Shown here piece by piece: positions 14,178-21,946 of a stretch of 53,278 nucleotides of DNA. The notes under the pieces were generated by a model. It was not told the origin of the DNA. It searched no databases and saw only the letters and a program-made list of their open reading frames with translations. Where the stretch lies: the NCBI GenBank assembly GCA_019510195.1, contig JAEKKW010000062.1:1-53278 (forward strand), in the 5' to 3' direction. This DNA is from Lysobacterales bacterium. GTDB taxonomy: Bacteria; Pseudomonadota; Gammaproteobacteria; Xanthomonadales; Xanthomonadaceae. The position numbers and the translations under genes are program-made. Within the stretch, counting starts at the first letter, position 1. The number at the start of each line of letters is the position of its first letter.

Positions 14178-14510
14178 GTGATCAGGACCGACGGCACAGT
14201 GCTCGGCTTCGATGTCGGCAAGCGCCGTATCGGCGTCGCGGTCGGCAGTGCGGTCAGTGGCGGTGCACGCCCGATCGCGGTGGTCGACGTCCACGACGGC
14301 GTGATCGACTGGAAGGCGATCGACAAGTTGATCCGCGAATGGCTGCCCGCGGGCCTGGTGGTGGGCGATCCGCTCACGCTGGCCGGCGACGACCAGCCGA
14401 TCCGCAAGTTCGCCCAGCAATTCGCACGCGATATCGCGGCGCGCAGCAAGCGTGAATTGGTGATGATGGAGGAGCGTTCGAGCTCGAGTCCCGGTTCCCG
14501 GAGTAACGAC
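14178..14510 (+). pseudogene. ruvX: RuvX/YqgF remnant fused in frame to pyrB
   Basis: The first ~103 residues of the open frame match RuvX (YqgF), the RNase H-like protein implicated in 16S rRNA 5'-end maturation and Holliday-junction resolution. They show GFDVGKRRIGVAVG with catalytic Asp12, DWKAIDKLIREW, VVGDPLTLAGDDQP, and EERSSS in place of the usual DER(L/S)(S/T)(T/S). The match stops there. The last ~35-50 residues of the domain, including the third catalytic Asp (KVDSASAV in E. coli YqgF), are absent. The frame runs straight into aspartate carbamoyltransferase with no stop. The GTG start at 14178 follows the yqgE stop by one base. A 10-bp direct repeat GTGATGATGG (14460-14469 and 14511-14520) brackets the truncation point. 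A functional RuvX here seems unlikely. Confidence 0.75.
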
Positions 14511-15428
14511 GTGATGATGGGTGGACAACACTTGCTGACGCTGGAAGGCATGCCGCGCGGGGATCTCGAAACACTGCTCGGGCGTGCGCAACAATTCGTG
14601 CAGGGAATGGATGCGCGCGAACGCCTGGCCGGAGTCGCGGTATGCACGCTGTTCTTCGAGGCGTCGACACGCACGCGCCTGAGTTTCCAGCGCGCGGCGC
14701 AGCGATTGGGCGCCGACGTGCTGAATTTCGATGCGGCGACGTCATCCGCCACCAAGGGTGAAACCGACGCCGATACCCTGCGCACCATCGAGGCGATGGG
14801 CGTGCGCGGTTTCATCATCCGCCATCGCGAAGACGGCGCGGTGGCGCGCCTGTCCGGGGTGGTGCGGCCGGAGACGAAGCTGATCAATGCCGGCGACGGC
14901 CGCAGCCAGCATCCGACGCAGGGCCTGCTCGACATGCTGACCATCCGCCAGGCCCGGGGCGACGACTTTTCGAAATTGAAGATCGCGATCGTCGGCGACA
15001 TGGCGCACTCGCGGGTGGCACGCAGCGATCTCTGCGCATTGCGTGCGCTCGGCGCGGGAGATATCCGCGTGTGCGCGCCGCCGTCGCTGCTGCCGGATGC
15101 GCAGACCCTGCAAGGGTGCACGGTGGAGGCCGATGTCGACAAGGCGGTCGCCGGCGCCGATGTGGTGATGACGTTGCGCCTGCAGCGTGAACGCATGCAG
15201 GAAGGGCTGGTGGCCTCGCTCGAGGACTACCATCGCGATTACGGCATCACCACCGGGCGCATGAAGCTGGCGCGGCCGGATGCGGTGGTGATGCATCCGG
15301 GCCCGATGAATCGCGGCGTCGAGATCAGCGATGAGGTCGCCGATGGCGCGCAGTCGCTGATCCTGCGCCAGGTCGCGAATGGTGTTGCGGTGCGGATGGC
15401 GGTGCTGGAAGCGGCGTTGGCCGTGTAA
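14178..15428 (+). CDS. pyrB: Aspartate carbamoyltransferase, open frame fused to a truncated RuvX N-terminus
   Basis: The ATCase part catalyses carbamoyl phosphate plus aspartate to carbamoyl aspartate, the committed step of pyrimidine synthesis. It starts at about residue 117 of the 416-residue frame (HLLTLEGMPRGDL). It carries the carbamoyl-phosphate loop EASTRTRLSF, KGETDADT, the DGRSQHPTQGLLD motif and the C-terminal HPGPMNRGVEI. From the in-frame GTG 14511 or ATG 14514/14517 it would be about 302-304 residues, close to a normal PyrB. CCGGAG at 14498-14503 lies seven to ten bases before these codons, so independent initiation is plausible. It is unclear whether the cell makes the 416-residue fusion, separate PyrB, or both. 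The gene ends one base before the convergent trpA stop. Confidence 0.9.
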   Translation: MIRTDGTVLGFDVGKRRIGVAVGSAVSGGARPIAVVDVHDGVIDWKAIDKLIREWLPAGLVVGDPLTLAGDDQPIRKFAQQFARDIAARSKRELVMMEERSSSSPGSRSNDVMMGGQHLLTLEGMPRGDLETLLGRAQQFVQGMDARERLAGVAVCTLFFEASTRTRLSFQRAAQRLGADVLNFDAATSSATKGETDADTLRTIEAMGVRGFIIRHREDGAVARLSGVVRPETKLINAGDGRSQHPTQGLLDMLTIRQARGDDFSKLKIAIVGDMAHSRVARSDLCALRALGAGDIRVCAPPSLLPDAQTLQGCTVEADVDKAVAGADVVMTLRLQRERMQEGLVASLEDYHRDYGITTGRMKLARPDAVVMHPGPMNRGVEISDEVADGAQSLILRQVANGVAVRMAVLEAALAV

Positions 15429-16169
15429 TCAGGCAAGCGCCGCAAACACCTCGCCGGCGGACTTCCCATCCGCCAATGCCTGCACCAGCGCGGTGCCGAC
15501 CACCGGGGTCGCGCCCATCGCGCGGATGCTCGCCAGCGCCCGGGGTTCCGACAATCCGAACCCGACTGCGAGTGGGCGATCAGTGATCGTGTTCAGTGCG
15601 GCCACGCGTTCGGCGATCGGCGCGAAATCGCGGGTGCCTTCGCCGGTGATGCCGAGGCGCGCGACGACGTAGGCGAACCGTTGCGCGAAGGGCGATGACG
15701 GGCCGGGATCGGCGCGTTCGGCGAGCAATTGCCTTGCCCGTTCGATGGATGTCGTCGGCGACAGCAGTGGCACGATCGGATAGCCGGCATCGCGCAAGGA
15801 GGCCTCGAATTCCGGTTCCTCGCCGAAGGGAAGATCGACGATCAAGAGTGAACGCACCGGCGTCTTGCGCAGAAGTTCGATCAGGCGAGTGCTGCCGATC
15901 TGCAGCAACGGATTGAGGTAGGTGAACAGCACGACATCGGGGCTGTCGCTGATCGTCGCCAGTTCTCGCAATACGCATGCGGCGGTGACGCCGCGTTCGA
16001 TCGCGCGTTGCGCGGCGGCTTGCAGTGCCGGGCCATCGGCGATCGGATCGGAATGCGGCACACCGACTTCTATGGTGGAAATGCCGGCGGCTTTGGCCGC
16101 ACGCAACAGTCCGGCGAGCGAATCGACGGAAGGATCGCCGGCCATGACGAAGGGAAGCAGGCGATCCAT
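15429..16169 (-). CDS. trpA: Tryptophan synthase alpha subunit, short N-terminus
   Basis: TrpA cleaves indole-3-glycerol phosphate to indole and glyceraldehyde 3-phosphate, and indole is channelled to TrpB. The 246 residues include the catalytic Glu34 (equivalent to E. coli Glu49, in IEVGVPHSDP) and Asp45 (equivalent to Asp60, in ADGP). The phosphate-binding end is GFGLSEPRAL...VVGTALVQAL. About 15 residues of the usual N-terminal helix are missing: the chain starts at MDRLLPFVMAGDPS, which normally begins near residue 16-20. TYLNPLLQ replaces the more usual MGY.NP. The start abuts the trpB stop. It is the last gene of the trp operon and ends against pyrB with no gap. Confidence 0.93.
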   Translation of the reverse strand: MDRLLPFVMAGDPSVDSLAGLLRAAKAAGISTIEVGVPHSDPIADGPALQAAAQRAIERGVTAACVLRELATISDSPDVVLFTYLNPLLQIGSTRLIELLRKTPVRSLLIVDLPFGEEPEFEASLRDAGYPIVPLLSPTTSIERARQLLAERADPGPSSPFAQRFAYVVARLGITGEGTRDFAPIAERVAALNTITDRPLAVGFGLSEPRALASIRAMGATPVVGTALVQALADGKSAGEVFAALA

Positions 16170-17354
16170 TCAGAGCTCCAGACGTGAACGGTAGGTGGAA
16201 AGATCCTTGTCGCCGCGACCGGACAGGCCGAGCAACACGCTGCGGGCGCCATCGCGGGCGAGATCGCGCAAGCGCGCAAGGGCATGGCTGGATTCGAGTG
16301 CGGGGAGAATGCCTTCGAGCGCGCACAGCTCACGCGCGGCGGCGAGCGCCTCGTCGTCGCTGGCGCGCCAGACATCGATGCGACCTTCGTCGGCCCAGGC
16401 CGCGAGTTCCGGGCCGAGTGCGGGGTAGTCGAGGCCCGCGCTGACCGACGAGGTTTCGGCGGTATGGCCGGCATCGTCCTGCAACAGCAGCGTGCGGCAA
16501 CCGTGCAGCACGCCGACGCGCCCGCCACCGACGCGCGCGGCATGTTCGCCCAATGCGCTGCCATGCCCTCCCGCTTCGACCACGACACGACGCAGCGTGT
16601 CATCGAGGAAGGGCCTGATCAGACCGGAGCTGTTGCTGCCACCGCCGACGCAGGCGATCACGGCATCGGGCAGCGATCCATGGCGTTCGAGGATCTGCGC
16701 GCGTGCTTCGTCGCCGATCACGGTCTGGAAACTGCGGACGATGGTCGGGAACGGATGTGGGCCGAGTGCGGAACCGAGCACGTAGTGCGCGCGATCGCAG
16801 CGTGCGGCCCAGGCGCGCAATGCGGCGTTCACCGCTTCCTTCAGCGTGCCCTGGCCACTGTCGACGGCTTCGACGGTGGCGCCGAACATGCGCATGCGGA
16901 ACACATTCGGCGCCTGGCGTTCCATGTCGGTGCGGCCCATGTAGACCGTGCAGGGCAGGCCGAGTCGCGCGCACGCGGCGGCGGTGGCGACGCCATGCTG
17001 GCCGGCGCCGGTCTCGGCGATGATCTCGTGCTTGTCCATGCGCTTCGCCAGCAGCACCTGCGCGATCGCGTTGTTGATCTTGTGCGCGCCGGTATGGCAC
17101 TGGTCTTCGCGCTTGAGGTAGAGATGTTCGAGACCGACCACTTTGGCGAGCCGCGGCGCCGATGTCAGCGCCGTCGGGCGGCCGACGAAATCGCGCAACT
17201 GTTCGGCGAGTTCGCGCACGAATTCAGGATCGTTGATCGCGGCGACGAACGCGTTTTCCAGTTCCAGCAGCGGCGTCATCAATGTTTCCGGCGCATAGCA
17301 GCCACCGAAACCGGCGCGGCCAAAGCGGGTGGGAAGTTCAAAGCGTGCAGGCAT
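16170..17354 (-). CDS. trpB: Tryptophan synthase beta subunit
   Basis: TrpB condenses indole with serine to tryptophan using PLP. The 394-residue protein has the PLP-lysine Lys92 in HTGAHKINNA, and AETGAGQHGVA, the phosphate-binding GGGSNSSGL (usually GGGSNA.G), SAGLDYP and SGRGDKDLSTY. Phrases such as RQAPNVFRMRMFGATV and GSALGPHPFP resemble, from memory, TrpB proteins of Bacteroidetes more than the usual xanthomonad type (which reads RQ..NV.RM with GT..GP.P). That is an impression to be tested by phylogeny. Its ATG at 17354 lies inside the end of trpF (17-bp overlap), pointing to translational coupling. Confidence 0.95.
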   Translation of the reverse strand: MPARFELPTRFGRAGFGGCYAPETLMTPLLELENAFVAAINDPEFVRELAEQLRDFVGRPTALTSAPRLAKVVGLEHLYLKREDQCHTGAHKINNAIAQVLLAKRMDKHEIIAETGAGQHGVATAAACARLGLPCTVYMGRTDMERQAPNVFRMRMFGATVEAVDSGQGTLKEAVNAALRAWAARCDRAHYVLGSALGPHPFPTIVRSFQTVIGDEARAQILERHGSLPDAVIACVGGGSNSSGLIRPFLDDTLRRVVVEAGGHGSALGEHAARVGGGRVGVLHGCRTLLLQDDAGHTAETSSVSAGLDYPALGPELAAWADEGRIDVWRASDDEALAAARELCALEGILPALESSHALARLRDLARDGARSVLLGLSGRGDKDLSTYRSRLEL

Positions 17355-17952
17355 GGACGGTACTCGTGAATTGCTGGACTTTGCTGGCGGATTTGTGGCC
17401 GGGCGATGTTTCCAGGCGCGAGGCGGCGTCGGCGCCACGGCATTGGCTGCGCTGATCTTGCGTCAACGCGTTGATGCGATCACGCACGTTGCCGCCGTCA
17501 AGACCGCCGGCGAGCAGGAACGGCCCCGGTGGCGGGAACTTTGCGGCGTGCGATTGGCCGGAACCACCGTGCAGGCCGGTTTGTGCTGGCGCGGTTTCCC
17601 ACACGTAGAGATCGGCTTCGGCCATCGGTTGATCGGCACTGTCCGGCCACGGCAACAACAGTTTCAATCCGGCGGCATGGGCGTGCGTTAACGCGTTAAT
17701 GCGCTCATGGGTTGGGAGATACGGCTGGATCCAGCCGAGAGCGTGGCATTTCGCTTCCTGGATCATCGACTCGATCCTGTCACCGACAGTGACCAGCACC
17801 CCGCGCGCACCGATGCCGGCACTCGCGGATGCGAGGTCCACGCAATGACGCGGACTTGCTGGATAGCACACGAAGCCGATCAGATCGGCGTCGGCATCCA
17901 GCGCCATCCGCGCATCCTCGTTATTGGTGATGCCGCAGACCTTGGCGATCAT
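17338..17952 (-). CDS. trpF: Phosphoribosylanthranilate isomerase
   Basis: TrpF isomerises N-(5'-phosphoribosyl)anthranilate to CdRP. This 204-residue (beta/alpha)8 protein starts with AKVCGITNNEDA, where the catalytic general base is Cys6. It has IGFVCYPASPRH (usually LGFxFxxxSPR), PFLLAGGLDGGNV near the phosphate-binding end, and an end segment ADAASRLETSPGHKS, where the usual SSGVE is SRLE. The region between is rather divergent. It overlaps trpC by 4 bp upstream and trpB by 17 bp downstream. The family is certain. Activity is likely, but the altered substrate-loop residues deserve note. Confidence 0.92.
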   Translation of the reverse strand: MIAKVCGITNNEDARMALDADADLIGFVCYPASPRHCVDLASASAGIGARGVLVTVGDRIESMIQEAKCHALGWIQPYLPTHERINALTHAHAAGLKLLLPWPDSADQPMAEADLYVWETAPAQTGLHGGSGQSHAAKFPPPGPFLLAGGLDGGNVRDRINALTQDQRSQCRGADAASRLETSPGHKSASKVQQFTSTVHACTL

Positions 17953-18764
17953 CCGCGCACCTTGCACGCCTGCAGGAAAGCGGTCGGATCGTTGCTGCGC
18001 ATCAGCGCTTCGCCGATCAGCACCGCATCGAAACCCTGTGCGAATGCGGCATGTGCGTCTTCAGGCGTAGCCAGCCCCGACTCGCGGATCAGCACGGCGT
18101 CGAGGAAGGCATCGCGCAGAGGCGCGGCAGTTGGGCTGCTGATGGCGAAACTGGCGAGATCGCGCGCGTTGATGCCGACCAGCGCGGCGCGACTGTCGCG
18201 CGCGAACGGGATCTCGCCGAGTTCGTGGAGTTCCACCAGCGGTTCGAGCCCGCGTTCGCGTGCTGCGTCGGCGAAGGCGGCGGTGTGATGGCCGAGCACG
18301 CGGGCGATCAGCAGCACGGCGTCGGCTTGCGCGACGGTTGCCGCTTCGTCGAGATGGCGTGCATCCAGCACGAAGCCCTTGTACAGGCGCGGCATGCCGT
18401 AGCGCTCGGCAGCAAGGACTTCATCGGCGCTACCACGGAACAATGCCGGTTCGGCGAGGATCGAGACCGCTGCGGCGCCGCCATCGCGATAGGCCTGTAA
18501 CTGCGTATCGAAATCGCGATCCGCGGCAAATGCGCCCAGCGAGGGCGAGGCGCGCTTGAATTCGGCGATCATCGCGCCACCGTTCGCGGCCTTGGCGGTG
18601 CGCAAGGATTGTTCAAAGCGACTGCTTCTAGCGGGTTGCGACGCTGGCACGATCTTCATGTCGGCGATGCGCGCGGCCTCGCTCTCGACCACGCGTGACA
18701 GGTGTGAATCCGCCGGCAGCCGCGCATCGCGCAGGACGTCGTGCAATGACGGCAACGTGCTCAT
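17949..18764 (-). CDS. trpC: Indole-3-glycerol phosphate synthase
   Basis: TrpC closes the indole ring, converting CdRP to indole-3-glycerol phosphate. The 271 residues include the active-site strand MIAEFKRASPSLGAF (with the catalytic Lys), VSILAEPALFRGS, a second conserved Lys in LYKGFVLD, LIARVL, LVELHELGE, LVGINARDL, IRESGLATPEDA and VLIGEALMRSNDP. The ATG at 18764 was chosen because it overlaps the trpD stop by 4 bp. It is fused to neither trpF nor trpD, as in other members of this operon type. Confidence 0.95.
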   Translation of the reverse strand: MSTLPSLHDVLRDARLPADSHLSRVVESEAARIADMKIVPASQPARSSRFEQSLRTAKAANGGAMIAEFKRASPSLGAFAADRDFDTQLQAYRDGGAAAVSILAEPALFRGSADEVLAAERYGMPRLYKGFVLDARHLDEAATVAQADAVLLIARVLGHHTAAFADAARERGLEPLVELHELGEIPFARDSRAALVGINARDLASFAISSPTAAPLRDAFLDAVLIRESGLATPEDAHAAFAQGFDAVLIGEALMRSNDPTAFLQACKVRG

Positions 18765-19792
18765 GCCAGCGACTCCTGTGCCGGCAGCGGCGCGTCGAAG
18801 CCGTTTTCCAGTACGTCGCGGCATTCGCGCATCGCCGCTGGCAATGCCGACAACGACGCATTCCGGTGCAGCAGCAATCCGAGTCCCGCCTGCAGCGCGA
18901 CCGCATCGGCGACGGCGGGACGGAAATCGGAGGAGCGCGAACCATGCAGGCAGCCGCGTGCGACCGCCAGCGCCTGGGCGCGATCGTTCACCCGCAACGC
19001 ATCGCGTTGTGGTGCAGCGATGCCGAGATCGCGCGGCACCAGCACTTCGGGCGCCAACACCTTGCCATCGCGCAGTTCCAGCACGCGCGTCGGACCTTCG
19101 ATCGAAGCTTCGTCCATGCCATCGCCCTGCGCGCTCTTGCCATGGATGACGAAGCCGCGTTGCAAGCCACCCTGGGCCAGTGCGCCGGCCATCGGTTCCA
19201 GCAAGGTGTCGCGGGCGACGCCGAGAACCTGATAGGTCGGGCGCGCCGGATTCAGCAGCGGACCGAGCAGGTTGAAGATGGTTGGGATGCCGAGGCGGCG
19301 ACGGATTTCGCGCAGTCGCCCGAGTAGCGGGTGATAGGCGGGCGCGAACAGGAAGGCGAAGTTGTGATCGGAAAGATCCTGCTTCAGTTGCGCAGGCGCA
19401 CGTGCGAGATCGTAGCCGAGCGCTTCCAGCAGATCGGCGCTGCCGCAGGTCGATGTCGAGGCGCGATTGCCGTGCTTGGCGACCGGCACGCCCAGATGCG
19501 CCAGCAGCAATCCCGACAGCGTGCTGAGGTTGGCGGTGGATGCGCCGTCGCCGCCGGTGCCGCAGGTGTCGAGCACGGCGAGATCGCCGCGATCGAACGG
19601 TTGCGCTTCAGCGAGCAGGGTCGATGCGAACGCGTGCAGTTCTTCCGCACTCGGGTCGCGTTGCGCGAGCAGCGCGAGGCAGGCGCCGACCAGCAATGCG
19701 TCGGTGTCCTGGTCGACGAAGATCCGCATCAGTTCGGCGGCGGTGTCGGCCGGCAACGGGCGGATCGGGTTGTGCGAAGTGAGCAGGGTCAT
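18761..19792 (-). CDS. trpD: Anthranilate phosphoribosyltransferase
   Basis: TrpD transfers phosphoribose from PRPP to anthranilate. The 343-residue protein has the PRPP-binding motif DTCGTGGDGAST, the KHGNRASTSTCGSADLLEALG segment (usually KHGNR.vSS..GSADvLEAlG), FAPAYHPLLGRL (usually FAP.yHpa.k.v), IFNLLGPLLNPARP and the metal/PRPP DEAS motif (GMDEASIEGPT). The start at 19792 overlaps trpG by 4 bp and the stop overlaps trpC by 4 bp. No truncation seen. Confidence 0.96.
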   Translation of the reverse strand: MTLLTSHNPIRPLPADTAAELMRIFVDQDTDALLVGACLALLAQRDPSAEELHAFASTLLAEAQPFDRGDLAVLDTCGTGGDGASTANLSTLSGLLLAHLGVPVAKHGNRASTSTCGSADLLEALGYDLARAPAQLKQDLSDHNFAFLFAPAYHPLLGRLREIRRRLGIPTIFNLLGPLLNPARPTYQVLGVARDTLLEPMAGALAQGGLQRGFVIHGKSAQGDGMDEASIEGPTRVLELRDGKVLAPEVLVPRDLGIAAPQRDALRVNDRAQALAVARGCLHGSRSSDFRPAVADAVALQAGLGLLLHRNASLSALPAAMRECRDVLENGFDAPLPAQESLA

Positions 19793-20364
19793 GCGCGGAG
19801 TCCGGACAGTCGCAACACGTTGGCCAGCAGCGCCGGGCCATCGGGGGTGAGGATGCTTTCGGGATGGAATTGCACGCCCCAGCGCGGCAGCGTGCGATGT
19901 GCCATCGCCATCGGTTCTCCTGACGTACTGCATGCAGTGATCTGCCATTCCTCCGGCAGACTGGCGTCGTCGACGATCAGGCTGTGATAACGACCGACCA
20001 TCAACGGCTGCGGCAAACCGGCGAAGACGCCGGTGCCGTCGTGTTCCACCGGCGTCGCTTCGCCATGCAAGGGTTCGCGCGCATGCGTCACGCGACCGCC
20101 GCTGCCGGCAGCCAGCGCCTGCTGGCCGAGACAAACGCCGAACACCGGGATTCCGAGATCGCTGGCGGCGATGTCCATATGGATCTTGCATTCGGTGGGA
20201 TGGCCCGGTCCCGGCGACAGCACGATCAATTGCGGATTGCGCGCACGCACGCCGTCGAGGTCGATCTGGTCGAAACGCGCGACCTCGACTTCTTCACCCA
20301 GCGCCTGGAAGGCCTGCACGAGGTTGTAGGTGAAACTGTCCAGTGCATCGATCAGCAAAATCAT
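19789..20364 (-). CDS. trpG: Anthranilate synthase component II (glutamine amidotransferase)
   Basis: TrpG hydrolyses glutamine and passes ammonia to TrpE for anthranilate synthesis; in some bacteria the same protein (PabA) also serves folate synthesis. The 191-residue class I amidotransferase has the oxyanion/PGPGHP motif LSPGPGHP near residue 50, nucleophile Cys78 in GVCLGQQAL (the His usually following LG is Gln here), and the His-Glu pair in FHPESILT. It starts four bases inside the trpE stop and overlaps trpD by 4 bp. No separate pabB is seen in the window. Confidence 0.95.
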   Translation of the reverse strand: MILLIDALDSFTYNLVQAFQALGEEVEVARFDQIDLDGVRARNPQLIVLSPGPGHPTECKIHMDIAASDLGIPVFGVCLGQQALAAGSGGRVTHAREPLHGEATPVEHDGTGVFAGLPQPLMVGRYHSLIVDDASLPEEWQITACSTSGEPMAMAHRTLPRWGVQFHPESILTPDGPALLANVLRLSGLRA

Positions 20365-21749
20365 TCCGCGCCCTCCAGGGCATTCAGCGAGACACCCATC
20401 GCCGCGGCCGGGGCAGCGAGTTTGTGCAAGGTTTCGAGATATTCCTTGTGCGCGTCCGAGGCGCGGACGATGCCGGCGCCGGCCTGCAACCAGGCATGTC
20501 CGTTGGCGTACACCGCGGTGCGCAGGATCAACGCGCTGTCGAAGGTGCCGTCGGCGCCGAGCTTGATCAGCGCACCCGCATACGGACCGCGCGCGTCGCC
20601 TTCCAGTTCGGCGATGCGCTTGGCCGCACGCAATTTCGGCGCACCGCTGACGGTGCCGGCGGGAAAGCACGAGGCGAGCACATCGAGCGCATCGATGCCT
20701 TCGCGCAATTTCGCTTTCACCGTGGTGGTGAGATGCAGGACGTGACTGGTGCGTTGCAAGGCCAGCGGTTTCTCCACGTGCACGCCACCGGGCGCGGCAC
20801 AACGGCCGAGATCGTTGCGGGCGAGATCGACCAGCATCTGGTGTTCGGCGAGTTCCTTGGGATCGTTGCGCAATGCCTCGAAGCGCGTCGCGTCTTCGGC
20901 GTCGTCGTCACCGCGTGGCACGGTGCCGGCGATCGGCAAGGTTTCGGCTTCGTCACCGTTCACGCGCACCAACATTTCCGGCGACGCGCCGGCCAGCGCG
21001 AATCCGTTCCATTCCAGCAGGAAACCGTAGGGACTGGGATTGAGGCGGCGCATGCGGCGATACGCGGTGAGTGGCGACGGCGGCTGTTCGATGCGCAGGC
21101 GCTGGCTCGGCACGAGTTGGTAGACGTCGCCATCGTGGATCAGGGTTTGCGCGTTGTGGACATGCGCTTCGTAATCGGCGCGGCGCATGGTGGCGAAAAC
21201 GCGCGGCGATCCGGCATCCTCACGTGCCAGCACGGGCTGGGTGAGGGCAAGCCGCAAGGTGAGCAGGCGTTGCCGCAACGAAGCTTCATCGTCCCCCATC
21301 ACCTGCAGTTCGGCGACCTGATGGAGATGATCGAAGACGAGTGCGGCGTCGAAGCGGCGCGCCCACACCGTCGGCAGGCCGAGCGAATCGCGCTTGGGCA
21401 GTTGCAGCGTCGGCTCGTCGGCGATCACCGCCTCGAAACCGACATAGCCGGCGATGCCGACACCGACCGGCATGCGATCGCGACCCGGCGGCAGTTCCGA
21501 GGCGGCATCGAATACGCCGTCATCCGCCAGCACCGGGCCGGCGAGATCGCGCAGCGACTGCACCCAGCCGTGCGCGGGCGGAGTCATCTTCACCTCGCCA
21601 TCGCCCTGGATCAGCACGAAGCTGTGGCGACCGACGCGCTCGCCCTGGTCGGCGGATTCCAGCAGCAGGCTGGCGCCGTGGGAGCGCAGCGCCAGATAGG
21701 CGGAGAGCGGGGTGATGAGATCGGCGGGGAGTCGGTGGCGAAGCAGCAT
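20361..21749 (-). CDS. trpE: Anthranilate synthase component I
   Basis: TrpE converts chorismate plus ammonia to anthranilate and pyruvate, the first committed step to tryptophan. The 462-residue protein carries the feedback-inhibition motif LLESA at residues 29-33. The chorismate-utilising core has LNPSPYGFLLEW, SPEMLVRV, LPIAGTVPRG, DLARNDLGR, the catalytic-His region RTSHVLHL and CFPAGTVSGAPK, ending in GAGIVRASD. The ATG at 21749 lies 15 bp beyond the attenuator T-run, and the ribosome-binding site is weak (GGA). It is the first structural gene of the seven-gene operon. Expression is expected to depend on read-through of the attenuator. Confidence 0.96.
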   Translation of the reverse strand: MLLRHRLPADLITPLSAYLALRSHGASLLLESADQGERVGRHSFVLIQGDGEVKMTPPAHGWVQSLRDLAGPVLADDGVFDAASELPPGRDRMPVGVGIAGYVGFEAVIADEPTLQLPKRDSLGLPTVWARRFDAALVFDHLHQVAELQVMGDDEASLRQRLLTLRLALTQPVLAREDAGSPRVFATMRRADYEAHVHNAQTLIHDGDVYQLVPSQRLRIEQPPSPLTAYRRMRRLNPSPYGFLLEWNGFALAGASPEMLVRVNGDEAETLPIAGTVPRGDDDAEDATRFEALRNDPKELAEHQMLVDLARNDLGRCAAPGGVHVEKPLALQRTSHVLHLTTTVKAKLREGIDALDVLASCFPAGTVSGAPKLRAAKRIAELEGDARGPYAGALIKLGADGTFDSALILRTAVYANGHAWLQAGAGIVRASDAHKEYLETLHKLAAPAAAMGVSLNALEGAE

Positions 21750-21764: not shown

Positions 21765-21797
21765 AAAAAAAGAGCCCGGTCGTTGCGGACCGGGCTC
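21765..21797 (-). terminator. trp attenuator: intrinsic terminator between trpL and trpE
   Basis: A perfect 10-bp inverted repeat, GAGCCCGGTC (21772-21781) and GACCGGGCTC (21788-21797), encloses a 6-nt loop. On the minus strand it is followed at once by seven T residues (21765-21771). An alternative partner exists upstream: GGCTCGGG (complement of 21840-21847) can pair over 8 bp with CCCGAGCC (complement of 21793-21800), which includes part of the terminator's first arm. The two structures exclude each other, as terminator and antiterminator do in classical trp attenuation. Confidence 0.88.
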
Positions 21798-21820
21798 GGG
21801 GATTCGGCAGGCAGGCGCGC

Positions 21821-21910
21821 TCAGGCGCCGGGCGAGTCTCCCGAGCCACGACGCCACCACCACGCGCGCTGCGTGGTCTGGAAAGCGGAGGGGGCGGGGA
21901 GATGGTGCAT
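21821..21910 (-). CDS. trpL: trp operon leader peptide with three consecutive Trp codons
   Basis: A 29-codon frame starts at ATG 21910, begins MHHLPAPSAF, contains three adjacent TGG codons (21862 down to 21854) followed by Arg-Arg, and stops with TGA at 21823-21821, 23 bases before the terminator stem. Starvation for charged tRNA-Trp should stall the ribosome at the first TGG and leave the antiterminator segment 21847-21840 free. Full translation to the stop should mask it and permit the terminator. A longer start at ATG 21928 is possible, but it lies inside the predicted promoter. No Shine-Dalgarno sequence is seen before 21910, consistent with a leaderless message. Confidence 0.85.
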   Translation of the reverse strand: MHHLPAPSAFQTTQRAWWWRRGSGDSPGA

Positions 21911-21916
21911 CGCCAC

Positions 21917-21946
21917 ATGAAACAGCATGGATGGCCGTGGTGTCAA
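21917..21946 (-). promoter_or_regulatory. Predicted trp operon promoter giving a leaderless trpL transcript
   Basis: A perfect -35 box TTGACA (minus strand, 21946-21941) is followed after 18 bp by TTTCAT (21922-21917; four of six -10 matches). Six bases then separate the -10 box from the A of the trpL ATG at 21910, which is where transcription would be expected to begin. No other convincing promoter is seen closer to trpE. Confidence 0.6.

Follow-up and report, generated by a model that had tools for sequence, protein, structure and literature searches.

A predicted leaderless trp attenuator and its trpEGDCFBA operon common to Lysobacteraceae and Acidobacteriota

The trp operon and its leader in the window

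The window, that is, the whole stretch of 53,278 nucleotides that was analysed, belongs to a Lysobacteraceae assembly closely related to Lysobacter silvestris (G000; 2.19 Mb in 149 contigs) and carries on its minus strand a complete trp operon in the order trpEGDCFBA, preceded by a short leader (Table 1). In the NCBIfam searches, trpD, trpB and trpA passed the curated cut-offs, and trpG passed the one set for the trpG/pabA subfamily; the best models for trpE, trpC and trpF gave scores under their curated cut-offs. The leader ORF (21910-21821, minus strand) translates into MHHLPAPSAFQTTQRAWWWRRGSGDSPGA (29 aa, followed by a stop codon), and trpE starts at 21749, downstream of the T-run of the leader.

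Table 1. Features of the leader and the trp operon, with coordinates in the window
Feature	Position	Strand	Evidence
-35 element TTGACA	21941..21946	-	sequence read directly; recurs in 61/61 leaders
-10-like TTTCAT, 18-bp spacer	21917..21922	-	sequence; not listed by promoter scan
predicted +1 (A of the trpL ATG)	21910	-	promoter geometry
trpL leader ORF (29 codons and a stop codon), putatively leaderless	21821..21910	-	translation, conservation, promoter geometry
three Trp codons (17-19), predicted sensors of charged tRNA-Trp	21854..21862	-	ORF translation
segment 2, antiterminator 5' arm, within the trpL ORF	21840..21847	-	alignment, covariation, folding
segment 3, antiterminator 3' arm, overlapping the terminator 5' arm	21793..21800	-	alignment, covariation
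intrinsic terminator hairpin, 10 bp	21772..21797	-	terminator-site listing, covariation
terminator T-run, seven T	21765..21771	-	sequence, terminator-site listing
trpE, divergent TrpE clade also found in Holophagaceae	20361..21749	-	NCBIfam profile, homologue search, tree
trpG	19789..20364	-	NCBIfam profile, gene order
trpD	18761..19792	-	NCBIfam profile, gene order
trpC	17949..18764	-	NCBIfam profile, gene order
trpF	17338..17952	-	NCBIfam profile, gene order
trpB	16170..17363	-	NCBIfam profile, trpB search
trpA	15429..16169	-	NCBIfam profile

The earlier note on this DNA had read at the leader TTGACA, an 18-nt spacer, TTTCAT, six bases and an ATG, and all of these are confirmed: TTGACA lies at 21946-21941, TTTCAT at 21922-21917 and the ATG at 21910-21908. 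The translation agrees with its 29-residue peptide bearing three adjacent Trp codons (21862-21854). Its 8-bp antiterminator (21840-21847 with 21793-21800) is fully complementary, with segment 2 reading GGCTCGGG (21847-21840) and segment 3 reading CCCGAGCC (21800-21793). The 10-bp terminator, in which 21797-21788 pairs with 21781-21772, was found with its seven T (21771-21765) and is listed as a terminator-like site of 10 pairs.

A promoter scan of the leader region reported zero sites, since its rule demands A at the second position of the -10 hexamer, where TTTCAT has T. In the folding check proposed in the earlier note, the folding energy of the whole leader alone is unremarkable, being only modestly low (z = -1.72, with 11 of 200 shuffled sequences folding equally well); we treat this single-sequence fold as weak evidence on which our conclusions do not lean. 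The layout is nevertheless beyond chance, as every one of the 61 distinct related leaders shows it.

Distribution and transfer of the operon

The window TrpE and its counterpart in Lysobacter silvestris AM20-91 share 97% identity, and the same type was found in 8 of the 17 genomes of the genus examined (G000-G016), namely G000, G002, G003, G005, G007, G008, G012 and G015. Another eight possess a TrpE only 37-41% identical to the window type. The TrpE match in G001 (same genus, 99% complete) was only weak and PabB-like, and this genome possibly represents a tryptophan auxotroph. Beyond the genus, the window type was detected in 2 of 299 genomes sampled across the order (E < 1e-90) and in 30 of 396 sampled across Acidobacteriota, the phylum of Geothrix. 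The nearest relatives found outside the family in a pattern-based scan of named genome contigs were those of Holophagaceae/Geothrix with 66-70% identity, the isolates including G. fermentans, G. paludis and G. rubra. The TrpE of the Acidobacteria-labelled MAG SZAS-17 is 71% identical to that of the window, the Acidobacteriota copies overall 66-72%, and that of an Opitutaceae-labelled MAG (Verrucomicrobiota; L077) 61%. The gene order trpE-G-D-C(-F) is common to the relatives where the fetched stretch shows it. The earlier note was aware of no described case in this family; the attenuator is present here but is not the family's own, as Acidobacteriota have it too.

We analyzed a TrpE alignment of 95 rows, from which duplicates (L002-L005, L098), the partial L008, identical proteins and proteins shorter than 400 aa had been dropped. 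The 60 rows of the window type were united on one branch (4.2, full support) apart from the native Lysobacterales TrpE; the support for the Lysobacteraceae group from TrpE alone was 17%. In a three-gene tree of 32 rows picked by hand, with L077 as the root of our choice, the Lysobacteraceae copies formed one clade (100/98) placed among the Acidobacteriota copies, and SZAS-17 neighboured this clade with a support of 91/91, which is short of conclusive. As the operon tree was rooted arbitrarily, the predicted direction of the transfer rests on the distribution and the insertion site.

With respect to the site, the first match met upstream of hrpA was pyrB, at a distance of 60-740 nt, in all nine operon-less genomes of the genus (G001, G004, G006, G009, G010, G011, G013, G014 and G016); the distance was 61-271 nt in six of them and 700-739 nt in three, in which another gene may intervene. 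In the holders G000, G002, G008 and G015, trpE instead lies at hrpA, divergently oriented and 358-383 nt from the hrpA match. The distance between trpE and hrpA is 1163 nt in G007 and about 6.8 kb in G005, whereas G003 and G012 retain pyrB beside hrpA and carry the operon elsewhere. Neither pyrB nor trpE was found within 1.5 kb of hrpA in the Lysobacteraceae genome CU05-9 (G328). In the window alone, pyrB was observed at the far end of the operon (15428/15429).

The trpB searches covered seven holders of the genus, and the window type was the sole trpB found in all of them; a copy of 54-56% identity was found in 5/5 operon-less genomes searched. Thus, with the native trpB missing from 7/7 holders searched, the operon appears to have replaced the native genes in most holders. 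CU05-9 possesses two trpB, one of the acquired type (86%) and one native-like (48% identical).

Instead of an acquisition by Lysobacteraceae, the operon might have been ancestral in this family and passed to Acidobacteriota, or both might have received it from a third, unsampled lineage. We regard this history as rather unlikely. In its favour, these data do not fix the root of the operon tree, the whole clade hanging on the 4.2 branch, and the Opitutaceae-labelled MAG carries the operon too. However, L077 and L036 are MAGs and could be mis-binned, and an ancestral operon sits poorly with its presence in only two of 299 genomes of the order, with the other TrpE in eight genus-mates and the other trpB in the five non-holders searched (the latter missing in the seven holders), and with the operon-free pyrB-hrpA neighbourhood in all nine non-holders; a third donor may still have been involved.

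One minor observation concerns pyrB itself. On the plus strand of the window, positions 14178-15428 form one open frame in which 14 residues separate a RuvX/YqgF-type domain from aspartate carbamoyltransferase. In eight relatives (L135-L142), the two parts match separately, about 180-340 nt apart, and a fusion or deletion in the genome of the window is possible.

Conservation of the leader and the predicted transcription start

The leader set comprises 61 distinct leaders upstream of trpE in the TrpE clade of the window, and the records they come from carry the labels of three phyla. Left out were 27 upstream stretches that duplicated others over their final 200 nt, as well as L008 and L082, for which there is no upstream DNA. 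The picks required at least two near Trp codons, and every clade member with upstream DNA yielded a leader containing them. Note that, once the layout had been seen, new start codons were assigned by hand to L041 and L048 and L106 was likewise added by hand; without these changes, TTGACA lies at 35-38 nt in 58 of the 60 automatic picks.

A perfect TTGACA begins 35-39 nt before the trpL ATG in 61/61 leaders, the distance being 37 nt in 45, 36 nt in 11, 35 nt in three, and 38 and 39 nt in one each. The trpL frame is open throughout the set, with a length of 28-31 codons and two (26 leaders), three (34) or four (1) Trp codons. The terminator hairpin was found in all 61, followed by a run of at least four T in 60 (L069 has three). 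On the other hand, the distance from the ATG to the trpE match varies between 151 and 275 nt (one pick at 315 was excluded and later corrected to 183). The conservation check suggested in the earlier note thus came out in its favour, as the cluster of at least two Trp codons and both hairpins are kept in 61/61 leaders, and the case set beforehand as a test against it, hairpins kept with the Trp frame lost, occurs in 0/61.

A gap of 6-7 nt separates the best -10 hexamer from the ATG in 60/61 leaders; this hexamer is TTTCAT in 40/61 and lies 18 bp from TTGACA in 53/61. A pyrimidine directly precedes the ATG in 54/61, and a search for Shine-Dalgarno-like motifs ahead of the trpL ATG found them in none of the 61, leaving neither a ribosome-binding motif of the kind sought nor room between promoter and ATG. 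The usual spacing of sigma-70 promoters underlies the prediction of the transcription start; combined with the fixed promoter geometry, it would place the start on or beside the trpL ATG. We regard the near-fixed spacing from promoter to ATG across phyla as the best sequence evidence for a leaderless start, and the suggestion of the earlier note that trpL appears leaderless gains indirect support from the TTGACA spacing, the -10 gap and the lack of Shine-Dalgarno-like motifs.

We consider it very unlikely that the attenuator is real but not leaderless, with transcription starting further upstream and a longer 5' UTR, perhaps with translation from ATG 21928 or GTG 21916. A second in-frame ATG does occur 9-18 nt upstream of the chosen one in all eight Lysobacteraceae leaders and L041, and TTTCAT is a weak -10 that the promoter scan does not list, but these upstream ATGs sit in or before the -10 and are missing from the other 52 leaders; across the 61 leaders, from records of three labelled phyla, the spacing from TTGACA to ATG is nearly fixed and the Shine-Dalgarno-like motifs searched for are absent before the ATG. 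A leadered design, moreover, looks different, as in two Acidobacteriota leaders, L174 (G348:C72) and L176 (G362:C34). These consist of a WWW leader peptide and a terminator before a TrpB-like gene, with a GGAG motif about 10 nt before the leader ATG and, in L176, TTGACA 54 nt before the ATG; both look leadered in their sequence.

L174 and L176 came from searches with a model (R1) built from the leader alignment (A1), in which many matches were short, low-scoring, terminator-like hairpins. Matches were found in 76 of 396 Acidobacteriota genomes (only 31 scoring at least 60 bits), in 63 of 288 genomes of the phylum of the Opitutaceae MAG (at least 60 bits only in the MAG itself) and in 48 of 274 genomes of the class (at least 60 bits only in the window itself). 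No such leader was detected at the 22 native Lysobacterales trpE loci searched. Six weak matches were inspected (L165, L166, L172, L174, L176 and L177); L174 and L176 were kept for their WWW leader before the TrpB-like gene, and L165, L166, L172 and L177 were treated as chance.

Hairpins, ribosome positions and known trp attenuators

The statistics on structure were taken from alignment A1, counting the antiterminator as 10 pairs and noting that related rows inflate all covariation figures. In the antiterminator, 86.6% of the cells are paired and 14 are changed on both sides (shuffled mean 4.2; reached in 0 of 500 shuffles). The true register beats all slides in cells paired, both-side-changed cells and covariation score; the number of pairs with both-side change (2) and of further pair types (8) is not above the shuffles, and one slid register has three pairs with both-side change. 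Where the segment 2 codon TCG (Ser) has become TTG (Leu), the opposing G of segment 3 is replaced by A in 6/12 leaders and retained as G-U in 6/12. In the terminator, 99.7% of the cells are paired and 31 are changed on both sides, a value reached in 0/500 shuffles. The antiterminator and the terminator share a segment and are mutually exclusive, and the short ORF with its cluster of two to four Trp codons precedes the biosynthetic operon in 61/61. The ribosome-mediated attenuation proposed in the earlier note is borne out by conservation of the Trp cluster, of the exclusive helices and of the distances between them. Immediately ahead of the Trp codons, 61/61 leaders can form a stem of 5 or more pairs, with a mean z of only -1.2, which suggests a hairpin at this position; we do not claim a pause hairpin.

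The front edge of a ribosome was set at 15 nt from the first base of the P site, and the ribosome positions were modelled by RNA folding with such a footprint. The first Trp codon of the cluster begins 15 nt ahead of segment 2 in most leaders (43), whereas 16 have 12 nt and two have 21 nt. A modelled ribosome at the first Trp codon leaves segment 2 free, its first base being overlapped in 16 leaders, and the claim of the earlier note that such a ribosome ends just before segment 2 agrees with the modelled front edge about 2 nt before it. When the RNA ends at segment 3, folding with the stalled ribosome gives the antiterminator in 61/61; once the ribosome has reached the stop codon, which lies 24-30 nt beyond the first base of segment 2, the terminator is predicted in 61/61. 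In the model, a stalled ribosome thus frees the antiterminator arm and a ribosome at the stop codon blocks it. With the full-length RNA and a stalled ribosome, folding prefers the terminator in 41/61, so antitermination must be kinetic and set by the order of transcription. The ribosome-free RNA folds into the antiterminator in 60/61 when it extends to segment 3 (the full-length form prefers the terminator in 56/61), implying that this leader has no strong 1:2 fallback of the kind known in the trp leader of E. coli. In this model, shutting the operon seems to need a translating ribosome, and loading on a bare 5' end would supply one early.

We propose that RNA polymerase would start on the first base of the trpL start codon, give or take one or two bases, and that a ribosome would load straight onto the bare 5' end of the transcript. 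When charged tRNA-Trp is scarce, the ribosome would stall at Trp codons 17-19; at the first of them, its front edge would stop about 2 nt short of segment 2, which could then pair with segment 3, prevent the terminator and let the operon be read. When tryptophan is plentiful, the ribosome would cover segment 2 on its way to the stop codon, which falls in the 2:3 loop, and would keep segments 2 and 3 apart, so that segment 3:4 pairing would end transcription in the T-run before trpE.

That the Trp-rich ORF and hairpins are a chance arrangement or a plain terminator, with trp under the TrpR repressor, is hardly credible. A TrpR homologue does occur in the genome of the window (74 bits) and in 7 others of 14 genomes searched, and the leader folding energy by itself is unremarkable, but no TrpR was found in Geothrix fermentans (G325), CU05-9 and G002, all with the same leader, and the Trp frame, antiterminator and spacing are kept in 61/61 with compensatory changes; TrpR could act in addition to the attenuator.

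The E. coli trp leader (RF00513) is similar in combining a Trp-codon leader peptide, an antiterminator competing with an intrinsic terminator and a full trp operon. In E. coli, trpL has a 5' UTR with a Shine-Dalgarno sequence and encodes 14 residues, and segment 2 follows the stop codon; in the present leader, segment 2 is part of the ORF and the stop codon falls in the 2:3 loop. RF00513 scored 13.6 bits on the window, below its cut-off of 41, and had zero matches across the genome of the window; no Rfam family exceeded its cut-off in the leader. Vitreschak 2004 and Lopatovskaya 2010 may include some of these leaders. The papers found on leader-peptide attenuation of Xanthomonas trpE look general by title, and a search mostly outside subscription journals found no published account of an Acidobacteriota trpL. 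As far as the excerpts of PMC7298713 go, the trpL transcript of S. meliloti (rnTrpL/peTrpL) begins at the ATG, and its RNA and 14-residue peptide have known trans-acting roles; the present leader resembles it in the consecutive Trp codons, the attenuation before trpE(G) and the (here predicted) leaderless start, and differs in a peptide of 28-31 residues and in trpEGDCFBA versus trpLE(G) of that alphaproteobacterium. The earlier note had named Sinorhizobium as the source of leaderless trpL, which holds, but its list was incomplete: trpL1 of Streptomyces lividans TK24, MFAHSTRNWWWTAHPAAH, is reported in the excerpted text of PMC8079986 as leaderless and shares with ours WWW, hairpins and a U-rich stretch before trpE, differing in a shorter peptide (18 residues), a monocistronic trpE and its host, a member of Actinobacteria. 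Neither this leader family nor its movement between phyla with promoter and operon was found in print among the matches listed. The reading as a ribosome-mediated trp attenuator is well supported. A leaderless-type trp attenuator is ordinary in kind; the present one was not found described in these lineages among the matches listed, and the phyla have it in common as a unit with the operon.

Altogether, we hold it very probable (roughly 0.87) that the window carries a ribosome-mediated attenuator with a leaderless peptide for a complete trp operon, which a Lysobacteraceae lineage acquired as one Holophagaceae-related block of promoter, trpL, terminator and trpEGDCFBA. A further step is offered only tentatively, and we lean against it: promoter, leaderless ORF and terminator may make up a control cassette independent of the host, needing no Shine-Dalgarno match because translation begins at the bare 5' end, and repressing through prompt 70S loading because ribosome-free RNA folds first into the antiterminator. 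Such self-sufficiency would have kept the switch intact when the operon crossed from Acidobacteriota to Lysobacteraceae, where the operon would have displaced the native split trp genes, among them a trpE with a putatively leaderless W-R-W-W leader of its own.

If the main reading is true, Acidobacteriota and Lysobacteraceae join Alphaproteobacteria and Actinobacteria as lineages with leaderless trp leaders, and this would be a clear case of an amino-acid attenuator crossing phyla together with its promoter and whole operon. Such a transfer raises the question of whether the coupling still functions in the same way after a change of host, and the 61 aligned leaders offer a test bed for the spacing of ribosome position, leaderless initiation and RNA folding.

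Separately, the native trpE of Lysobacteraceae is preceded by a short leader ORF of its own kind in 14 of 24 loci under a strict rule (an ORF with W.W or WW close enough to trpE, and a best hexamer matching TATAAT in at least 4/6 positions), which selected 0/18 trpE loci in other families. Four more Lysobacteraceae loci carry an ORF of this kind behind a hexamer that matches in 3 of 6 positions, giving 18/24 (L012, L014, L015, L017, L019, L021, L024, L026, L189 and L192-L200), and four of the 18 other-family loci have unlike W-containing ORFs. The motif in the 18 Lysobacteraceae loci is W-R-W-W(-P) or W-R-W(*), and the start codon (ATG or GTG) follows hexamers such as TAAAGT and TACAGT by 6-7 nt. 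No run of five T was found upstream of native trpE in the 8 loci checked, and in L024 the ORF apparently overruns the trpE start. Judged from these motifs, the W-R-W-W ORF looks like a second, unrelated, leaderless Trp-sensing leader.
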